This document shows, piece after piece, positions 40,542-49,279 of a stretch of 64,000 nt of DNA. Position numbers and translations under genes: made by a program. The notes under the pieces were generated by a model that made no database searches, was not told the DNA's origin, and saw only the letters and a list, made by a program, of their open reading frames with translations. The DNA is from Mycobacterium adipatum (GTDB lineage Bacteria; Actinomycetota; Actinomycetes; Mycobacteriales; Mycobacteriaceae): positions 5,642,001 through 5,706,000 of the forward strand of contig NZ_CP015596.1 of NCBI RefSeq assembly GCF_001644575.1, in the 5' to 3' direction. Position 1 is the stretch's first letter; every line of letters starts with the position of its first letter.

Positions 40542-40545
<4 letters not shown>

Positions 40546-42659
40546 TGCCGGGCCGCCTGGATCGCGGTGATCGCCACCGTGTTCACGATGTCCTCCACCA
40601 GGGCTCCCCGGGACAGGTCGTTGACCGGCTTGTTCAGTCCCTGCAACACCGGTCCGATCGCGATGGCACCGGCGCTGCGCTGCACCGCCTTGTAGGTGTT
40701 GTTGCCCGTGTTGAGGTCCGGGAAGATCAGCACGGTGGCCCGGCCCGCCACCTCCGAACCCGGCATCTTGGTCTGTGCGGTCGACGGATCCACCGCCGCG
40801 TCGTACTGGATCGGTCCTTCCACCAGAAGTTCCGGTTGCCGCTCGCGCACCAGTTCGGTTGCCGCTCTGACCTTGTCGACGTCTGCACCGGTACCGGAGC
40901 TGCCCGTCGAATACGACAGCATGGCAACCCGCGGATCGATGCCGAACTGGGCGGCGGTGCGCGCCGACGAGATGGCGATGTCGGCGAGTTGTTCGGCCGT
41001 CGGGTCCGGCACGATCGCGCAGTCGCCGTAGGCCAGCACCCGGTCCGCCAGACACATCAGGAAGATGCTGGAGACCGTGCTGACACCGGGTGCGGTCTTG
41101 ATGATCTCGAAGGCCGGGCGGACGGTGTGCGCGGTGGTGTGCCTGGCCCCGGAGACCATCCCGTCGACCATGTCGTTGTGGACCAGCATCGTGCCGAAAT
41201 AGGAGACGTCGGAGATGATCTCGCGGGCCTGGTCGACGGTGACACCCTTGTGGCTGCGCAGCTGCGCATACTGTTCGGCAAACCCGTCGCACAGGTCGCT
41301 GGTGCGGGGGTCGAGCACGGTGGCGGCGGCCAGGTCCACGCCCAGTTCGGCGGCCCGGGCGCGGACCGTCTTCTCCTCGCCCAGAATGGTCAAGTCGGCC
41401 ACCCGGCGCGCCAGCAGACGTCCGGCCGCACGCAGGATCCGGTCGTCGTCGCCTTCGGGCAGCACGATCCGCTGCACGTCGGCGCGGGCCTGGTCGATCA
41501 GCTGATAGGTGAACATCTGTGGCGTGGTGACCGTGGGGATCGGAATCGACAGCGTGTCAAGCAGATCCGCGGTATCGACATAGCGCTCCATCAACGCCAG
41601 CGCGGTGTCGACCTTGCGATGGGAATCGACGGTCACCCGCCCGCGGGCGGAGGCGACGGCACGCGCGGTGTCATAGGTACCCAGTTCGGTACTGATGATC
41701 GGCAGCCGCGTGCCCAGGCCCTCCACCAGCCGGGCAACCTCCGGGTGCAGCGGCAACCCACCGTTGAGGATGACACAGGACAGGGACGGGAACCCCGCCG
41801 CCGCATGCGCACCCATCACTGCCATCACCACGTCGGAACGATCGCCGGGGGTGATGACGGCCATGCCGTCGTGCAGCCGTTCCAGTACATGCTCGGCGGT
41901 CATCCCCGCCACCAGGACGCTCATCGCCTCGCGGATCAGCGACTGCTCGTCACCGCCGGTGAGCTCGCCGTGCACGGCCGCCCGCAACTCCGCCACCGAG
42001 GGTGCCACCAACAGCGGTTCCTCGGGCAGTACGTAGCTCGCGGGCACCAGCTCCGAGAGCTGCGCCAGCGCCTCGGCCACCGCGGTCAATTGATCGGGAT
42101 CGCAGCGGTTGGCCACCACGGCCGCGGTGTGCGCATGCTGGCCGGCCAGTTCCGCCAGGCAGACCTCGACGGCCTGCGCGACCTCGGCGGGGGTGCGGTC
42201 CTTGGCCTTCACCGCGAGCACCACGGGTGCGCCGAGGTTGACCGCTATCCGCGCGTTCATGCTCAGCTCACTGGGTGCCGCCACGTCGGTGTAGTCGCTG
42301 CCGACGATGAGCACCGCATCGCTGCGGTCGGCGACGCGATGGAACCGCTCGACGATCTCGGCGATGGCCGCCTCGGGATCCTCGTGCAGCTGCCGATAGC
42401 TGACGCCGGCGCACTCCTGATAGGTGAGCCCGGCGGTCGCCTGCGACAACAGCAGCTCCAGGATGTAGTCGCGCTCCCCCTCGGCGTCACCGGGTGAGCC
42501 CGGCGAGGGGGCAGCCTCACGATGTTCGAGCCGGGTGATCGGCCGGAACACCGCGACCCTGGCGACGGTGGCCGTCAGCTTGTGCAGGATCCCCAGGGCG
42601 ATGGTGGACTTTCCGGTGTCACCCTCGGGCGACGCGATGTAGATGGCCGAAGCGGTCAC
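40542..42659 (-). CDS. pta: Phosphate acetyltransferase
   Basis: 705 residues, the long form of Pta. An N-terminal P-loop-like domain ([13 protein letters not shown], about 8-20) and a central DRTGG domain precede the C-terminal catalytic PTA domain (about 375-700), with [27 protein letters not shown] and SYSTGSSG. It converts acetyl-CoA and phosphate to acetyl phosphate. The start overlaps the phospho-lyase gene stop by four bases (ATGA), so in this organism acetate metabolism is coupled to the amino-alcohol locus upstream. Orthologue of Rv0408. Confidence 0.96.
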
Positions 42660-43942
42660 TCGGCCAAGCTTGCCAGCACCTCACCGAATTCGGCAACGAA
42701 GCGGTCCACGTCGGACATCGAGAACACCAACGGCGGCCTGACCTTGAGCACATTGCCGTGCGCCCCGCACACCGATATCAGCACCCGGCGCTCGCGCATG
42801 GCGTTGACGATCCAGCGGGCCGCCGCGCGGTCGGGATGGCCGTCGGCGTCGAGCACCTCCACACCGAGGTACAGCCCGGCACCGCGCACCTCTCCGATGC
42901 GCGGATTCTCGGCGGTCAGTCGGGTCACCTCGGCGCGCAGATCACCGCCCACCGCGGCCGCGTTGGCGATCAGCTGTTCACCCTCGATGACGTCCAAGAC
43001 GGCGGCCGCGGCCGCCATCGACACCGGGTTGCCGCCGAAGGTATTGAAATAGGGCACCTCGTTGGCAAAGCCGGCCAACACATCGCCGCGCGCCACCATC
43101 GCCGCGACCGGCATCCCGTTGGCCATCGGCTTACCCATCGTCACGAGCTCGGGCACCACCCCGTGGCGGGAGAAACCCCACATCCCCGCCCCGGTGCGCC
43201 CGAAGCCCGGCTGCACTTCGTCGGCGATCAGCACACCGCCGGCGGCACGCACCGCGGACACCGCCGGCGCCAGCACCAACGGGTCGGGGTAGATGCCGTC
43301 GGAGGAGAAGATGGTGTCCACGATCAACGCGCTCACGCCGAAACCGTTCTCCCGCAGGTCGGCGATGGCCGCGGCGATCTCGGCCGGCTCCAGCTGCGGC
43401 GACACCGTGCGTACATGTGGCCCCAGGCTGGTGCGACCTCCGATGGACGGCGAAATGGCATTCACCGCAGCCGTATTGCCGTGATAGGCCTCCTCGGTGA
43501 CGATGATGCCGGTGGCCCCGGTGTGCATGGCCGCCACCCGCAGGGCCAGATCGTTGACTTCAGATCCGGTGCAGGCGTACATGATCTGGTAGGAGCCGCC
43601 GGGGCCCGGATCGGGGAAGGTCGCCAGCAGGCGCTGGGAGTAGTCCACGATCCCTTCGTGCAGATACCGGGTGTGGGTGTTGAGGGTGCTCAACTGTCTC
43701 GTCACGGCGTCGATCACGTGCGGATGGCAGTGCCCGACGCTGGCGACGTTGTTGTAGGCGTCAAGATAGTCATTGCCGTCTGCGTCGAACAGCTTCGTCC
43801 CCGAGGCCCGGACCAGATGAACGGGCTTCTCGTAGAACAACCGGTAGGCGGGCCCGAGGACTCGGTTCCGAGCAGCTATCAGGGGGTCGTCCAGCTGACC
43901 ACCCTGATAGCTGTTGGAATCCATGATGTTGGAAAAGGACAT
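42656..43942 (-). CDS. Class III transaminase-fold PLP enzyme, phospho-lyase (AGXT2L) type
   Basis: 428 residues. PLP lysine Lys271 lies in VTMGKPMANGMP and the PLP-ring Asp241 in IADEVQPGFGR. YLDAYNNVASVGHCHP and CTGSEVNDLALR closely resemble the AGXT2L group. Those enzymes are not aminotransferases; they split phosphoethanolamine or phosphohydroxylysine into aldehyde, ammonia and phosphate. A kinase of the APH/hydroxylysine-kinase class is in the same locus, supporting this reading over simple transamination. It is ten bases after the permease gene and overlaps pta by four bases. Confidence 0.87.
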   Translation of the reverse strand: MSFSNIMDSNSYQGGQLDDPLIAARNRVLGPAYRLFYEKPVHLVRASGTKLFDADGNDYLDAYNNVASVGHCHPHVIDAVTRQLSTLNTHTRYLHEGIVDYSQRLLATFPDPGPGGSYQIMYACTGSEVNDLALRVAAMHTGATGIIVTEEAYHGNTAAVNAISPSIGGRTSLGPHVRTVSPQLEPAEIAAAIADLRENGFGVSALIVDTIFSSDGIYPDPLVLAPAVSAVRAAGGVLIADEVQPGFGRTGAGMWGFSRHGVVPELVTMGKPMANGMPVAAMVARGDVLAGFANEVPYFNTFGGNPVSMAAAAAVLDVIEGEQLIANAAAVGGDLRAEVTRLTAENPRIGEVRGAGLYLGVEVLDADGHPDRAAARWIVNAMRERRVLISVCGAHGNVLKVRPPLVFSMSDVDRFVAEFGEVLASLAE

Positions 43943-43951
43943 GATTCGTCG

Positions 43952-45511
43952 TCAGCGCTCGTGGGCTTCTTCCAGAACGGTGCGCCCCAATTCGGCGTAC
44001 CGTGCTGGATCTTTGTACTTCAGGAACAGGGCCAGCAGCACGCCCCCGATACCGACGATACCGACCACCCACGGGATGGCGGCGAAGATCCAGTCCGTGG
44101 CCGCGGTGCCCGCCGCGAAGGACGCGTTCTTGGCCAGCAGGTAGACCACATAGATCATGCCGAGCCCGCCCAGGAGCGGGGCCAGGAACGTGCTGAACCA
44201 GTTGGCGGTTTCCGGATGCCGCTTGTGCACATGGAAATACGAGATCACCGAGAACGCTGCCAGGGCTTGCACGATCATGATCGCGGTGGTACCCAGCAGA
44301 GCCATCAGGCCGTACAGACCGGTGTAGGGATCACGATCGGTGAACTGGAAGAACAGCACGATCAGCGTGGCGAAACCGGTCTGCACGAACCCCGCGATAT
44401 GCGGGGAGCCGTGCACCCGGTGGGTGGCACCGATGGTCTTGCGCATACCCGGGATGACGTTCTCCCGACCCAGCGCGTAGAGGTAGCGGGCCGCACAGTT
44501 GTGGAACGCCATACCGCACGCGAACGAGCCCGTCATCAGCAGGATCTTGAACAGATCGACGGCCCATTGGCCCAGATTGTCGTGCACCGGGTTGAAGAAG
44601 ATGTTGCCCGCGGTGGCCGAATCCTGGGCCAGCGCAACGGCGTTCTCCGGGCCGGTACCGACGATGGCCAGCCAGGACACGATCACGTAGAACGCGCCGA
44701 TACCGACGACCGAACAGATCACCGCGATGGGGATGATCTTCTTGGGGTTGCGTGATTCCTCGCCGTACATGGCGCTGGACTCGAACCCGACCCAGGACCA
44801 GAACGCGAAGAACAGTCCGACACCCGCGGACCCGGCCACCGCGATCATGGAGCCGTCGGGGCCCTCGACGGCCCCAGACAAGCTCTGAAAACCGTTGAGC
44901 GGGTTCAACGATCCCCACGACCAGCCCTGCGGACCGCCACCGGCCACCAACACCGAGACAGCCAGGGCGCCCAGCATCACGATCTCGGTGACCAGGAAGA
45001 CACCGAGTACCTTTGCGGCCAAGTTGATGTCGAAGTAGGTCAGCAGGGTGTTCACGCCCAGCATCACCAGCGCGAACACGATCCAGGGCACGTCGACACC
45101 GAACAGTGAGGTGAACAGGTCGGTGCCGAAGAACGAGAAGATGCCGATCAGGGAGGCCTCGAACACCATGTACGCCAGTGCGGTGAGGAATCCGGCGCCC
45201 AGCCCGACGATGCGCCCGAGGCCGTGCGAGATGTACCCGTAGAAGGCCCCGGTGGCGGTGATGTGCTTGCTCATGGCGGCGTAGCCGATGGCGAACAGCG
45301 TGAGCACGATGGTGGCCACGAAGTAGCCGGCGGGCGCGAAGGCCCCGTTGCCGTAGCCGACCGCGATCGGAACGTTGCCGACCATGGCGGTGATGGGTGC
45401 GGCGGTCGCGACCGCCATGAACAGCACGCCCACCAGCCCGACGGCGTTCGGCTTGAGGCGTTGAATGGGGTTGGTGCCCGTAGGGGCGGGTGGATCGATG
45501 ATTTCGCTCAT
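43952..45511 (-). CDS. APC-family amino acid/amine permease
   Basis: 519 residues and about 12 membrane helices. The first helix, GLVGVLFMAVATAAPITAM, carries the conserved APC region, and GLFFAFWSWVGFESSAMYGEES is the helix-6 signature with the charged EES. Relatives carry amino acids, polyamines or ethanolamine. Ten bases before the phospho-lyase gene and divergent from the kinase, it is the likely importer of the locus substrate. A palindromic AT-rich site (45532-45558) lies just upstream of the start and may be the GntR operator. Confidence 0.88.
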   Translation of the reverse strand: MSEIIDPPAPTGTNPIQRLKPNAVGLVGVLFMAVATAAPITAMVGNVPIAVGYGNGAFAPAGYFVATIVLTLFAIGYAAMSKHITATGAFYGYISHGLGRIVGLGAGFLTALAYMVFEASLIGIFSFFGTDLFTSLFGVDVPWIVFALVMLGVNTLLTYFDINLAAKVLGVFLVTEIVMLGALAVSVLVAGGGPQGWSWGSLNPLNGFQSLSGAVEGPDGSMIAVAGSAGVGLFFAFWSWVGFESSAMYGEESRNPKKIIPIAVICSVVGIGAFYVIVSWLAIVGTGPENAVALAQDSATAGNIFFNPVHDNLGQWAVDLFKILLMTGSFACGMAFHNCAARYLYALGRENVIPGMRKTIGATHRVHGSPHIAGFVQTGFATLIVLFFQFTDRDPYTGLYGLMALLGTTAIMIVQALAAFSVISYFHVHKRHPETANWFSTFLAPLLGGLGMIYVVYLLAKNASFAAGTAATDWIFAAIPWVVGIVGIGGVLLALFLKYKDPARYAELGRTVLEEAHER

Positions 45512-45531
45512 TGAATCCCAATCTGAGGGCC

Positions 45532-45560
45532 AAACCAGACAGTTATTTGGTCTGGTTTTG
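45532..45560. promoter_or_regulatory. Candidate GntR operator, site 1
   Basis: Perfect 9-base inverted repeat AAACCAGAC (45532-45540) and GTCTGGTTT (45550-45558) with a nine-base spacer, 20-50 bases upstream of the permease start. Its right half, ATTTGGTCTGGTTTTG (45545-45560), recurs almost unchanged next to the kinase gene (45719-45734). Position and repetition point to the GntR regulator of this locus. Confidence 0.55.
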
Positions 45561-45564
45561 AAGA

Positions 45565-45588
45565 GTCACCGGCTTCGGTACCGGTGAC
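45565..45588. promoter_or_regulatory. Perfect inverted repeat in divergent intergenic region
   Basis: GTCACCGG, eight-base spacer, CCGGTGAC. It lies upstream of both divergent genes, has no T-run on either side and so is not a terminator. It may be a second regulator site. Confidence 0.4.
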
Positions 45589-45718
45589 GGAATGCGACGT
45601 CGGCAATTGTTACCCCGCTCAGATTCGTTGGTCAACTGGAGATTTTAACTGTGAGCTTGCTGTGTTTCGGCGGTGTTTCGCACCGGAGCATATTGCAACG
45701 CTGACGTAAAAATCGGCG

Positions 45719-45734
45719 ATTTGGTCTGTTTTGG
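45719..45734 (+). promoter_or_regulatory. Candidate GntR operator, site 2
   Basis: ATTTGGTCTGTTTTGG shares its first ten bases and overall pattern with site 1 and lies about 28 bases before the kinase ATG, over the expected -35 region. The 158 bases between site 1 and this site hold no gene. Confidence 0.5.
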
Positions 45735-45761
45735 CCCTCTCTTTGGTACACACTGGTCGGC

Positions 45762-46751
45762 ATGCCGGGATTACCTTCTGACCACGAGAGCTTCGCCCGC
45801 GCGGCGCTACCCGCCTACGGTCGCGCCGCGGACACCGAGCTCCGGCTGCTGAGCCTGTCGGAAAATGCCACCTACCTGGTCGGCGGCGACGAACCGTTCG
45901 TGCTGCGGGTGCACCGGCCCGACTACCACTCCAGGCAGGCGATCGAGTCCGAGCTCGCCTGGATGTCCGCCCTGCGCCACCAGACGTCGGTCCGCACCCC
46001 CGAGCTGGTGACCGCGCGTAGCGGGGAGAAGGTCGTCACCGCCGCGGTCGGAGACCGGACGCTGCATGTCGACGCCGTCAGCCATATCGCCGGGTGCACC
46101 GCCGAGGATGCCACCGATATCGTCGGGTTCGCCGACCTCGGTGAACTCGCCGCCCAGATGCACGAACATGCGTTGGCATGGCCGCAGCCGAGCGGGTTCA
46201 CCCGATTCCGGTGGGATGTGGACACCATGGTCGGCCCCGCCGGACGATGGGGAGACTGGCGTGCGGCGGCGGGCTTGACCCGCACCGAGCAGGAGACGAT
46301 CGAGCGGGCACTGTCCGTCCTCGCGCAGCGGCTCGACGAGTTCGGCACCGGCCCGGACCGATTCGGGTTGGTGCACGCCGACCTGCGACTGGCCAACCTG
46401 ATGGTCGATCCGAACACCCCCGGCTCCGGTATCACCGTGATCGACTTCGACGACTGCGGCTGGTCCTGGCACCTGGCCGATCTCGGCGCCGTGGTGTCCT
46501 TCATCGAGGACACCCCGGTGGCCGAGACCATCGTCGAACAATGGTTGCGCGGGTATCAGAACGTGCGCACCCTGCCGGGCGACCACCAGGCCCTGATATC
46601 GACCTTCGTGATGCTGCGCCGCATCCAGCTGACGGCCTGGATCGCCTCGCACGCCGACGCCGACGCCGCAACCACCATAGGACCCGAATTTGTCAGTGGC
46701 ACAGCCCAACTGGCGCAGCGCTACCTTACCGACGCATCGTGGATGAGCTGA
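45762..46751 (+). CDS. APH-family kinase, hydroxylysine/amino-alcohol kinase-like
   Basis: 329 residues. The aminoglycoside-phosphotransferase fold is shown by LSENATYLV and FVLRVHRP (ATP-site strands), the catalytic loop [12 protein letters not shown] (HxDxxxxN) and the metal-binding VIDFDD (DFG equivalent). Members phosphorylate hydroxyl groups of small molecules such as choline, homoserine, hydroxylysine or aminoglycosides. Beside a phospho-lyase gene and a permease it most likely makes the phosphorylated amino alcohol consumed by that enzyme. It is divergent from the permease and followed by SDR and GntR genes on the same strand. Confidence 0.87.
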
Positions 46752-46762
46752 GAGGAACACCA

Positions 46763-47539
46763 ATGTTCGACCTAGTGGGACGTTCGGTCCTGGTGACCGG
46801 CGGGAGCAAGGGAATCGGGCGGGGCATCGCCTCGGTGTTCGCCCGCGCGGGAGCCAATGTCGCGATCGCCGCGCGCTCGGCAGGCAGTCTGGACGAGGCC
46901 GTCGCCGAGGTGGACGATCTCGGCGACGGCACGGTGATCGGGGTACGGGTCGATGTCAGCGACCGCGGGTCCTGCGACGAGATGGCCGCCGCCGCCGTCG
47001 AGGCCTTCGGCGGGCTGGATGTGTTGTGCGCCAATGCCGGCATCTTCCCCGACGCACCGCTGGCCACCATGACACCCGCGCAGCTCGACGAAATCATGGG
47101 CATCAACGTGCACGGGACGTTCTTCGCGGTGCAGGCCTGCCTGGACGCGTTGACCGCGTCGGGGACGGGACGGATCGTGCTGACCTCCTCGATCACCGGA
47201 CCCATCACCGGTTACCCCGGGTGGTCGCATTACGGCGCCACCAAGGCCGCCCAACTGGGTTTCATGCGGACCGCCGCGATCGAGCTGGCACCTCACGGGA
47301 TCACCGTCAATGCCATCCTGCCGGGCAACATCCTGACCGAGGGCCTGCTCGACAACGGCGAGGACTACCTCGCGAGCATGGCCCGATCGATTCCCGCCGG
47401 CGCGCTGGGCACCCCGGAGGACATCGGCCATCTCGCGGCATTCCTGGCCACCAGGGAGGCCGCCTACATCACCGGTCAGGCCATCGCGGTGGACGGTGGC
47501 CAGGTGCTACCCGAGTCCCTGGATGCGATCATCACCTGA
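46763..47539 (+). CDS. SDR-family oxidoreductase
   Basis: 258 residues of classical short-chain dehydrogenase type. NAD(P) motif TGGSKGIG (about 12-19), CANAG, catalytic Ser in TSSITG and YGATK with Tyr and Lys. ATG at 46763 follows AGAGGA by a normal distance, 11 bases after the kinase stop. The C-terminus [14 protein letters not shown] is standard. In the locus it may oxidise or reduce a hydroxy or aldehyde intermediate; the actual substrate is unknown. Confidence 0.88.
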
Positions 47540-47541
47540 TC

Positions 47542-48309
47542 ATGGAGGAAACACCGGGGGGTGCGGTCGCAGAGGATGTACGCCGGCGGATTCTGTCCAT
47601 GCTGTCCAGCGGTGCGCTGCGCCCGGGCTCCCGGCTGGGCACCGAACGGGAGATGGCCGAGCAGTTCGCGGTGTCCCGCGCGACGCTGCGCAGCGCACTG
47701 CTGCCGTTGAGTCAGGCCGGCGTGCTGGAGCGACGCACCGGTCGGGCCGGAGGAACCTTCATCCGTGCAGATGTGGTGCAGCGCAACGCCGCCGAGCGGG
47801 CCGGACTGCCGGCACTACTGCAGGACGGCGGTCACACCAGCCATACCAAGGTACTGGCCACCGACACCAGACCGGCGACCGACGCGGAATCCACCGCACT
47901 GAGCATCCCCGAGAACGCGCCGGTCGTCGTGATCCGTCGGCTGCGCTACGCCGACGGGGTGCCGCTGTCGGTCGACATGTCCTGTTTCAGCGCCGACCAG
48001 GTCGGCGATCTGCTCGAGCAGCCGCTGGGCGGGTCGCTCTACGAGCTGCTGCGGATCCGCTACGGACTGGTGCCCGCCGAGACCGACGAGACCATTGAGG
48101 TCGTCAGCGCCAGCCCGCGGGAGGCGCAATGGCTGGGCATCGCCCAGCGCAAACCGTTGCTCGCCATCACCCGGGTGGCCCGCTGCGAAGCGGGCAGACC
48201 GTTCGAGTACGCCTACGACCTGTTCCGCGCGGACCGGGTCCGACTCACCGCGTCCAGCAGCACCGGGATCACGCTAGCGTGCGCAACCGTGGCTCCAGAT
48301 CCCGTTTGA
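47542..48309 (+). CDS. GntR-family regulator with UTRA domain (HutC type)
   Basis: 255 residues. The N-terminal winged helix (about 8-75) has the GntR pattern [21 protein letters not shown]. The C-terminal UTRA ligand domain (about 95-240) includes [20 protein letters not shown]. It starts two bases after the SDR stop, so it is co-transcribed with the kinase and SDR. It probably senses an effector made in or taken up by this locus and acts on the repeated sites between 45532 and 45734. The last 41 bases overlap the convergent fgd1 gene. Confidence 0.9.
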
Positions 48310-49279
48310 ACAGCTCCAGGAATCGGCGCTGGTCATGGCCGGGCGCGTGGAACACCAGATGATTGAGGCCCCAGTCGACATAGTCCTTGACCTTGGCGAC
48401 CGCCTCGTCGGGATCGGAGGCGACGATCCAACGCTTGGCCACCTGCTCGATGGGCAACGCGTCGGCGGCCTTCTCCATCTCGATCGGGTCGTCGATGGAA
48501 TGCTTCTGCTCGGCCGTCAATGACAGCGGTGCCCAGAACCGGGTGTTCTCCAACGCCAGTTCGGGATCGGTGTCGTAGGAGATCTTGATCTCGATCATCC
48601 GGTCGACATCGTCGGGGTTCTTGCCGGCGGCTTCGGCGCCCTCGCGCATGGCCGGGATGAGCTTGTCCTTGTAGAGCTCTTCGCCCTTACCGGAGGTGCA
48701 GATGAACCCGTCGCCGGCGCGGCCGGCGTACTTGGCCACCTGCGGTCCGCCCGCGGCGATATAGATCGGGATCCCGCCCTCGGGAACGTCGTAGATCGAC
48801 GCGCCCTTGGTCTTGTAGTACTCGCCGTCGAAGTCGACCCGGTCGCCCAGCCACAGCTCGCGCATCAGCCGCACCGATTCGCGCAGCCGCGCGTAACGCT
48901 CCTTGAACTCCGGCCACTCGCCCTCGTAGCCGGTGGCGATCTCGTTGAGCGCCTCACCGGTCCCGACACCGAGGAAGATCCGACCCGGGTACAGGCACCC
49001 CATGGTGGCGAACGCCTGGGCGATGACCGCCGGGTTGTACCGGAAGGTCGGGGTGAGCACCGAGGTGCCCAACTGCAGCCGCTGGGTGCGCTCGCCGACG
49101 GCGGTCATCCAGGCCAGTGAGAACGGGGCATGGCCGCCCTCGTGGCGCCACGGCTGGAAATGATCACTGACGGTCGCACTGTCCATCCCGTGTGCCTCGG
49201 CCGCCACGGCCAATTCGACGAGCTCGCGCGGGGCGAACTGTTCCGCCGACGCCTTGTATCCCAGTTTGAGTTCAGCCAC
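48269..49279 (-). CDS. fgd1: F420-dependent glucose-6-phosphate dehydrogenase
   Basis: 336 residues, the exact length of M. tuberculosis Fgd1 (Rv0407). The luciferase-like TIM barrel has the catalytic His40 (VSDHFQPW) and Glu109 ([10 protein letters not shown]). It oxidises glucose 6-phosphate to 6-phosphogluconolactone and reduces cofactor F420, supplying F420H2 for redox defence and for activation of nitroimidazole prodrugs. It is convergent with the GntR gene (41-base overlap) and divergent from the MBL-fold gene. In M. tuberculosis it adjoins pta; here the amino-alcohol locus separates them. Confidence 0.97.

Follow-up and report, generated by a model that had tools for sequence, protein, structure and literature searches.

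Between pta and fgd1 of Mycobacterium adipatum lies a set of five genes whose probable function is to import a small amino alcohol, phosphorylate it, and split the product into an aldehyde, phosphate and ammonia under nitrogen scarcity. The set was found in a stretch of 64,000 nucleotides (contig NZ_CP015596.1, positions 5,642,001 to 5,706,000), hereafter called the window, and encodes a pyridoxal phosphate (PLP) enzyme of the AGXT2L type, an APC-family permease, an APH-family kinase, a short-chain dehydrogenase/reductase (SDR) and a GntR-UTRA regulator. As judged from sequence comparisons, it would constitute a cytosolic, shell-less route for scavenging nitrogen from a short amino alcohol. 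Aminoacetone/(S)-1-amino-2-propanol is the most likely substrate, with propanal, ammonia and phosphate as products, and we favour this assignment at slightly better than even confidence. It draws on the composition of the gene set, the placement of the PLP enzyme among phospho-lyases, the kinship of the kinase and the SDR with enzymes of the Rhodococcus and Mycobacterium microcompartment (RMM), the absence of a bacterial microcompartment (BMC) domain match from the genome, and a conserved GlnR-type site in the intergenic region.

The enzymes and the RMM pathway have already been described. What appears to be new, within the literature searched, is a GlnR target tied to amino-alcohol phosphate chemistry, the conservation of its site, and a link through gene loss to the shell locus. 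These provide a testable function for a portion of the GlnR regulon of mycobacteria that has carried no name of its own, annotated as ‘phosphotransferase’, ‘amino acid permease’ and ‘SDR’, and they suggest that microcompartment chemistry may also occur outside a shell, under nitrogen control and with a real phospho-lyase. In addition, the PLP enzyme of the RMM locus does not resemble a phospho-lyase, which raises the question of how the amino-alcohol phosphate is cleaved there, and by which enzyme.

Organization of the gene cluster

The five genes form a divergon in the pta-fgd1 interval, with the lyase and permease genes on the minus strand and the kinase, SDR and GntR genes on the plus strand. 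The arrangement and the sequence motifs described in an earlier note on this DNA were all recovered, as was the overlap it had reported between the lyase gene and pta. The features are as follows.

42656..43942, minus strand: AGXT2L/ETNPPL-type PLP phospho-lyase, 428 aa (PF00202)
43952..45511, minus strand: APC-family amino acid/amine permease, 519 aa (PF13520, 78 bits)
45762..46751, plus strand: APH-family kinase, 329 aa, predicted (S)-1-amino-2-propanol kinase (PF01636, 90 bits)
46763..47539, plus strand: SDR, 258 aa, predicted aminoacetone reductase / 1-amino-2-propanol dehydrogenase (3pk0, 454 bits)
47542..48309, plus strand: GntR-UTRA regulator of the HutC type, 255 aa (PF07702, 132 bits; PF00392, 55 bits)
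40542..42659, minus strand: pta, context (NF004167, 919 bits)
48269..49279, minus strand: fgd1, context, convergent with the GntR gene (TIGR03554, 726 bits)

The starts of the SDR and GntR genes are our own reading, and the mechanically determined frames are longer (from 46178 and 47026, respectively). Spacing within each arm is tight (9 bp between lyase and permease, 11 bp between kinase and SDR, and 2 bp between SDR and GntR), and therefore two divergent transcription units fit the arrangement. At the outer ends, the stop of the lyase gene overlaps the start of pta by four bases (42656-42659), and the GntR gene overlaps the 3' end of the convergent fgd1 gene. The ackA-type gene adjoining pta matches TIGR00016, ‘acetate/propionate family kinase’, with 401 bits (cut-off 293). 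A plasmid origin of the cluster was considered and rejected, given that a single plasmid record matched and covered 6% of the query.

The PLP enzyme groups with phospho-lyases

By its sequence, the PLP enzyme is an AGXT2L/ETNPPL-type phospho-lyase, an identity based on its best solved relatives, its position in a well-supported clade and its diagnostic residues. It carries the motifs NNVASVGHCHP, DEVQPGFGR and MGKPMANGMP, and its PLP-binding lysine probably lies within LVTMGKPMANG. The best matches in the PDB, as ranked by phmmer, are 5g4i/5g4j (‘phospholyase’, 341 bits), presumably protein A1RDF1 of Arthrobacter, and 6tor, the human ethanolamine-phosphate phospho-lyase (291 bits); a 4-aminobutyrate transaminase follows with 165 bits.

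Phylogenetic placement had been proposed earlier as a check, and it put the enzyme with the AGXT2L lyases and not among the 4-aminobutyrate-type transaminases. In a maximum-likelihood tree of 73 sequences, it falls with both solved lyases in a clade of 59 rows (support 100/98), whereas 10 other M. adipatum class III enzymes and four RMM PLP enzymes lie outside that clade. Residues R25, N64, N65, R92, W255, F299 and K400 are identical in 59 of the 59 clade rows, and are absent from the 10 transaminases of this genome except for W255 in one and K400 in one. R92 and K400 may be the residues that hold the phosphate. Although they share the clade and the diagnostic residues with the window lyase, 5g4i/5g4j and 6tor belong to a different subclade, and the window's V391-C392 corresponds to R-V in 5g4i and A-D in 6tor.

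Kinship with the RMM microcompartment

The RMM, also called the Aut or aminoacetone-utilisation microcompartment of Mycobacterium and Rhodococcus, involves the same kinds of genes, namely those for an SDR, an APH kinase, a GntR-UTRA regulator, an APC permease and a class III PLP enzyme (PMC4207490 and PMC6620236). Over the aligned parts, the proteins of the RMM loci we fetched are 42-46% (kinase), 59-64% (SDR) and 60-63% (permease) identical to those of the cluster.

The one strong PDB relative of the kinase is 6ef6 (287 bits), followed by a match of 45 bits, with three matches in all; the kinase is thus closer to 6ef6 than to any other solved kinase, among the few solved relatives that exist. 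The SDR matches 3pk0 (454 bits), 3rih (405 bits) and 6ci8/6ci9 (317 bits), with the next match at 157 bits. Given that the enzymes of an RMM locus from a relative (L094) match strongly to 6ef6 (kinase, 579 bits) and to 6ci8/6ci9 (SDR, 487 and 483 bits), we take these structures to represent RMM-type enzymes. Two papers from 2018 name the M. smegmatis RMM enzymes, in their titles, ‘(S)-1-amino-2-propanol kinase’ and ‘S-(+)-1-amino-2-propanol dehydrogenase’. The window SDR appears to belong to the same group as the 1-amino-2-propanol dehydrogenase 6ci8/6ci9: SDRs of the cluster, of the RMM and of Nocardioides fall together in a tree (86/86). Kinases of the cluster, Nocardioides and the RMM form a group with moderate support (85/79), and the tree no longer resolves this grouping once the domain of a fused protein (see below) is included. 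In M. smegmatis, a paralogue of the RMM kinase outside the microcompartment is reportedly also an aminopropanol kinase, commonly encoded alongside a candidate phospholyase.

Membership of the cluster in an RMM organelle was rejected. The RMM locus has shell genes and an acylating aldehyde dehydrogenase, whereas the window cluster has neither. A search of the genome for BMC-domain genes (PF00936) gave 0 matches, the pentamer family not being part of the search, and matches to the RMM-type CoA-acylating aldehyde dehydrogenase were weak (best 44 bits). Two matches above the cut-off of TIGR03215 (acylating acetaldehyde dehydrogenase) are located elsewhere in the genome. The PLP enzymes also differ. 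That of L094 best matches a putrescine aminotransferase (179 bits), and 5g4i is not among its best 60 matches. The four RMM PLP enzymes in the tree lie outside the lyase clade but next to it, on a long branch whose placement is weakly supported (80/80), and of the diagnostic residues they carry N65 and W255 only, lacking R92, F299 and K400. The promoters differ as well: the GlnR pattern found between the two arms of the cluster occurs in 0 of the 16 RMM permease/PLP promoters examined, which were taken from 16 of 20 fetched loci.

An RMM-like shell locus (L043; G055:C1:5131000-5150000) contains genes for a GntR regulator, a kinase (39% identity), a BMC-domain protein, an aldehyde dehydrogenase, a permease and an RMM-type PLP enzyme, and it has a lyase-type gene at either end, with products 55% and 52% identical to the window lyase. 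Approximately 10 kb from the RMM kinase gene of another locus, L107 (G012:C1:880000-899500), there is a further kinase gene with a divergent SDR gene (37%).

The M. adipatum genome also encodes a 962-amino acid PRK06149 protein (1387 bits; G000:C1:1970666-1973551, corresponding to L033:7666-10551, minus strand) in which a kinase and a lyase domain are joined, the latter falling within the AGXT2L clade. The two activities predicted for the cluster are thus predicted here in a single chain. The lyase part is 34% identical to the window lyase, and the kinase part lies on a very long branch. This protein could represent another amino-alcohol route.

Nitrogen control and promoter elements

The intergenic region between the two arms contains a sequence that conforms to the M. 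smegmatis GlnR motif, Gn2AC-n6-GnAAC (PMC3662644). Statements on M. smegmatis in this section come from PMC3662644, PMC4222082, PMC4617892 and PMC3283656, and, for PMC2018728, from a listing.

45664..45679, minus strand: GlnR-type site of the form GAAAC-n6-GAAAC, whose end is 82 bp upstream of the kinase start codon

The pattern on its own is common, given that it was seen seven times in the window when 7.0 occurrences are expected. Among 61 distinct sequences out of 74 orthologous intergenic regions, 46 carry a GlnR-type site at 79-85 bp before the first plus-strand gene, and the pattern occurs anywhere in 4.7% of shuffled promoter regions. The half-sites are nearly fixed across these regions and the six spacer bases vary. 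The site is also retained in 12 of 17 regions that have no kinase and SDR genes.

Experiments published for M. smegmatis bear on this site, if MSMEG_0778-0782, which have the same kinds of genes in the same order, are the orthologues; we judged this likely from the annotation and gene order in the papers. A GlnR chromatin immunoprecipitation peak is located between MSMEG_0780 and 0781, with expression ratios (wild type/glnR deletion) of 23.0 and 8.4 (PMC3662644). In a second study comparing wild type and glnR deletion strains under nitrogen starvation, the values are 10.2 for 0778, 35.2 for 0779, 8.8 for 0780 and 36.2 for 0781, and gel-shift binding was seen upstream of 0781. A third study places 0778, at 2.1, among nitrogen-regulated regulators. 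By paper title, M. smegmatis additionally has an RMM locus, which M. adipatum does not.

Three further elements in the intergenic region, largely conserved in the relatives that were aligned (21 of 74 intergenic regions), are candidate operators for the GntR protein.

45545..45558, plus strand: ATTTGGTCTG element near the permease start, direct repeat, candidate GntR operator
45719..45732, plus strand: ATTTGGTCTG element before the kinase gene, direct repeat, candidate GntR operator
45742..45755, plus strand: TTTGGTACACACTG element (also TTTGGTACACAC), candidate second GntR half-site, 22 bp from the second ATTTGGTCTG, TGG..CACACT largely conserved

A perfect 9-bp inverted repeat, AAACCAGAC/GTCTGGTTT (45532-45558), overlaps the first TTTGGTCTG element, and the aligned relatives do not conserve the left arm of this repeat. 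A scan for sigma-70 promoters yielded one weak site (9 of 12).

Distribution and gene loss

We surveyed 198 genomes, scoring the best 8 lyase and the best 11 kinase candidates in each, so that a missing match is provisional. Many of the fetched loci come from genomes that are also in this survey, and class I loci were counted as 76 distinct lyase rows at score thresholds that we set. All four partner genes are present in 43 of these 76 loci, indicating that the cluster is more than a chance grouping. Permease and GntR genes without kinase and SDR genes are found in 17, a kinase gene only in 10 (two of which, L060 and L127, are at contig ends), and other combinations in six. Outside mycobacteria, a kinase gene within approximately 2.3 kb of a lyase gene recurs in Bifidobacterium, Nocardioides, Eggerthellaceae, Collinsella, Cellulomonas and a metagenome-assembled Treponema genome. 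The order is lyase-SDR-kinase with a GntR gene nearby in Bifidobacterium, and GntR-SDR-kinase/lyase in Nocardioides. No kinase of the cluster type was found in the fetched flanks of the alphaproteobacterial loci L173-L175, L178, L180 and L190.

The pta-fgd1 interval was scored for 116 of the 198 genomes. The two genes are less than 150 bp apart in 44, flank the cluster in 16 (8 of which are without kinase and SDR genes), and flank other inserts in the remaining 56, where the inserted DNA spans 0.4 to 28.6 kb. The proposal that the cluster is an accessory insertion, which the earlier note had drawn from an adjacency of pta and fgd1 that it stated for M. tuberculosis, is partly borne out. The interval varies across the genus, and in some genomes (e.g. 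L083, L086-L090 and L092) the cluster is located elsewhere.

The distribution of the shell locus adds to this picture. A BMC-domain gene is present in 37 of the 198 genomes. In 10 genomes a class I lyase was matched but a class I kinase was not; an RMM shell gene, with the gene for an RMM-class kinase close by, is present in all 10. Among genomes with both a class I lyase and a class I kinase, the shell gene is held by 7 of 41. This is most simply explained by the RMM kinase standing in for a local kinase that was lost. The M. peregrinum type strain, for example, has the lyase and lacks the local kinase. More broadly, an AGXT2L-type match of any kind was counted by hand in 34 of 37 shell genomes and in 61 of 161 others, a co-occurrence that may be explained in part by the large genomes of fast growers; 16 of the 37 shell genomes have no class I or class II lyase at the threshold used. 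Fisher values for the gene-loss, shell and EutB comparisons ignore kinship among the genomes.

Two unusual records were noted. The cluster of Mycobacterium aurum (L126, record LT549889.1) lies between pta and fgd1, and no permease gene was found in it. The kinase and lyase of a contig binned as Bifidobacterium breve (L127, CALQLM010000021.1) are nested among mycobacterial ones, and the contig is probably mis-binned.

A proposed pathway

We infer the substrate and each catalytic step of the pathway, together with the ligand of the GntR protein and the fate of the aldehyde, as follows. The permease, whose probable role is substrate uptake, would import the amino alcohol, and the SDR would interconvert aminoacetone and 1-amino-2-propanol. 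The APH kinase would then form the O-phosphate, from which the AGXT2L-type lyase would eliminate phosphate to leave an enamine, whose hydrolysis would give propanal and ammonia. The prediction that kinase and lyase form a two-step deamination route, also made in the earlier note, is supported by these sequence relationships. GlnR is expected to activate the divergent promoters upon nitrogen starvation, and the GntR-UTRA protein may sense a pathway metabolite. Propanal could be converted to propionyl-CoA by an acylating dehydrogenase encoded elsewhere, with ATP then recovered through Pta-AckA; the coupling to Pta-AckA that had been suggested previously is possible. Biochemical work on Erwinia in the 1970s reportedly described the use of amino alcohols by way of a kinase and a phospho-lyase. 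A search for an aminopropanol phospholyase found nothing in the literature examined.

We ranked 1-amino-2-propanol first because of the kinship of the kinase and SDR with the RMM enzymes, the presence of an SDR gene, and the gene-loss pattern. The earlier note had assigned the SDR no role and had not reported the GlnR site, and its substrate, ethanolamine, now appears the less likely one.

A number of observations weigh against our assignment. The RMM groupings of the kinase (85/79) and SDR (86/86) appear moderate and are not strongly supported, and the solved relatives of the lyase are named phospholyase and ethanolamine-phosphate phospho-lyase. No acylating aldehyde dehydrogenase is encoded among the window genes of the cluster. 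The SDR is not obligatory, given the 10 of 76 class I loci with kinase and lyase only, and 5 of 46 genomes with a class I kinase have no class I lyase match. The 10-of-10 gene-loss pattern corresponds to about three to four independent changes on the lyase tree, and its Fisher value is an overstatement. The GlnR site is missing at the conserved position from 15 of the 61 intergenic regions, including all eight of the L053/L057/L158-L163 subclade, and msmeg_0782, the lyase gene, receives 0 mentions in the main text of two GlnR papers. Threonine, a possible source of aminoacetone, is listed among poor or unsuitable nitrogen sources for M. smegmatis. The remaining points concern ethanolamine and are taken up below.

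Alternative functions

The strongest competing explanation, to which we assign a real but clearly smaller probability, is that the substrate is ethanolamine. The kinase would form phosphoethanolamine and the lyase would release acetaldehyde, ammonia and phosphate, providing a GlnR-controlled alternative to EutBC with enzymes that may serve both amino alcohols. Growth of M. smegmatis on ethanolamine nitrogen depends on GlnR, according to published reports. The GlnR papers list genes 0778-0781, and eutBC (MSMEG_1553-1554) is unnamed in their main texts, where no msmeg_155x gene appears. The GlnR pattern occurs 0 times in the 13-kb eutBC stretch of M. adipatum, where 1.3 occurrences are expected. 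The second-best solved relative of the lyase, 6tor, is an ethanolamine-phosphate phospho-lyase, and EutB is missing from 21 of the 51 genomes with a class I lyase.

Set against this, the M. adipatum genome encodes EutB (680 bits), EutC (295 bits) and an ethanolamine permease (534 bits), all above curated cut-offs, so that an ethanolamine route ‘without EutBC’, as had been envisaged, does not describe this organism. Like the predicted route of the cluster, the EutBC route liberates ammonia from an amino alcohol and leaves an aldehyde, but it is B12-dependent and uses unrelated enzymes. The genes for EutB, EutC and the permease are located together in one stretch (L207; G000:C1:5184000-5197000), which also holds a gene resembling those for diol dehydratase reactivases (TIGR04491, 865 bits). 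EutB was found in 16 of the 16 cluster-bearing genomes of the 116-genome subset (eight of which are without a local kinase or SDR gene), and across the survey it occurs more often in genomes that have a class I lyase (30 of 51) than in the others (42 of 147). In a nitrogen-stress study of M. smegmatis, an up-regulated ‘ethanolamine uptake and assimilation’ module was reported, and the main text names neither 0778-0782 nor any msmeg_155x gene. Ethanolamine as substrate also leaves the SDR without a role and does not fit the kinship of the kinase and SDR with the RMM enzymes, and the permease lies outside the ethanolamine family (31 bits against TIGR00908, cut-off 381.75). The GlnR dependence of ethanolamine growth might also result from ammonium assimilation. 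Nevertheless, because of that dependence and the moderate grouping of the kinase, we raised ethanolamine from an outside prospect to its present standing and lowered aminopropanol from a fairly confident choice to a slight preference. It is possible that the enzyme pair accepts both amino alcohols.

The aminopropanol pathway might also be divided between loci. Where the pta-fgd1 cluster has lost its kinase and SDR genes, the RMM kinase and dehydrogenase would make aminopropanol phosphate, and the GlnR-controlled lyase encoded elsewhere would finish the reaction. The shell-less lyase would then be the one that the aminoacetone microcompartment lacks in some mycobacteria. We regard this extension as doubtful, and marked it down slightly together with the aminopropanol assignment. 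If true, one part of the pathway would be encoded by an organelle operon and the other by a GlnR-controlled gene for a cytosolic lyase, with nitrogen status deciding whether the compound is drained for ammonia.

Hydroxylysine or another larger hydroxy-amine is an unlikely substrate. The human hydroxylysine kinase and AGXT2L2 form a pair from the same two enzyme families, and the permease of the cluster is of the amino-acid type. However, the nearest solved kinase is that of the RMM, and an SDR of the aminopropanol dehydrogenase group would have no role.

The reading of the PLP enzyme as an ordinary class III transaminase, with the kinase as an unrelated neighbour, is very improbable. NCBIfam models give only class III matches below their cut-offs and Pfam gives only the general family, which would be compatible with such an enzyme, but we rejected this reading on the basis of the PDB ranking, the 100/98 lyase clade and the diagnostic residues. 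Moreover, the kinase-lyase neighbourhood recurs, and each of the two window proteins matches its own part of the fused family PRK06149.

Least probable of all is a biosynthetic role for the kinase, in which its aminopropanol phosphate would go into cobalamin assembly or cobinamide salvage and not be broken down: cobalamin assembly does include an aminopropanol attachment step (PMC8088520), but a phospho-lyase that would destroy the product is encoded in the same divergon and the control site is of the nitrogen starvation type. Stereochemistry also speaks against it: the names of the RMM enzymes specify the S form, whereas the aminopropanol of cobalamin is the R form.

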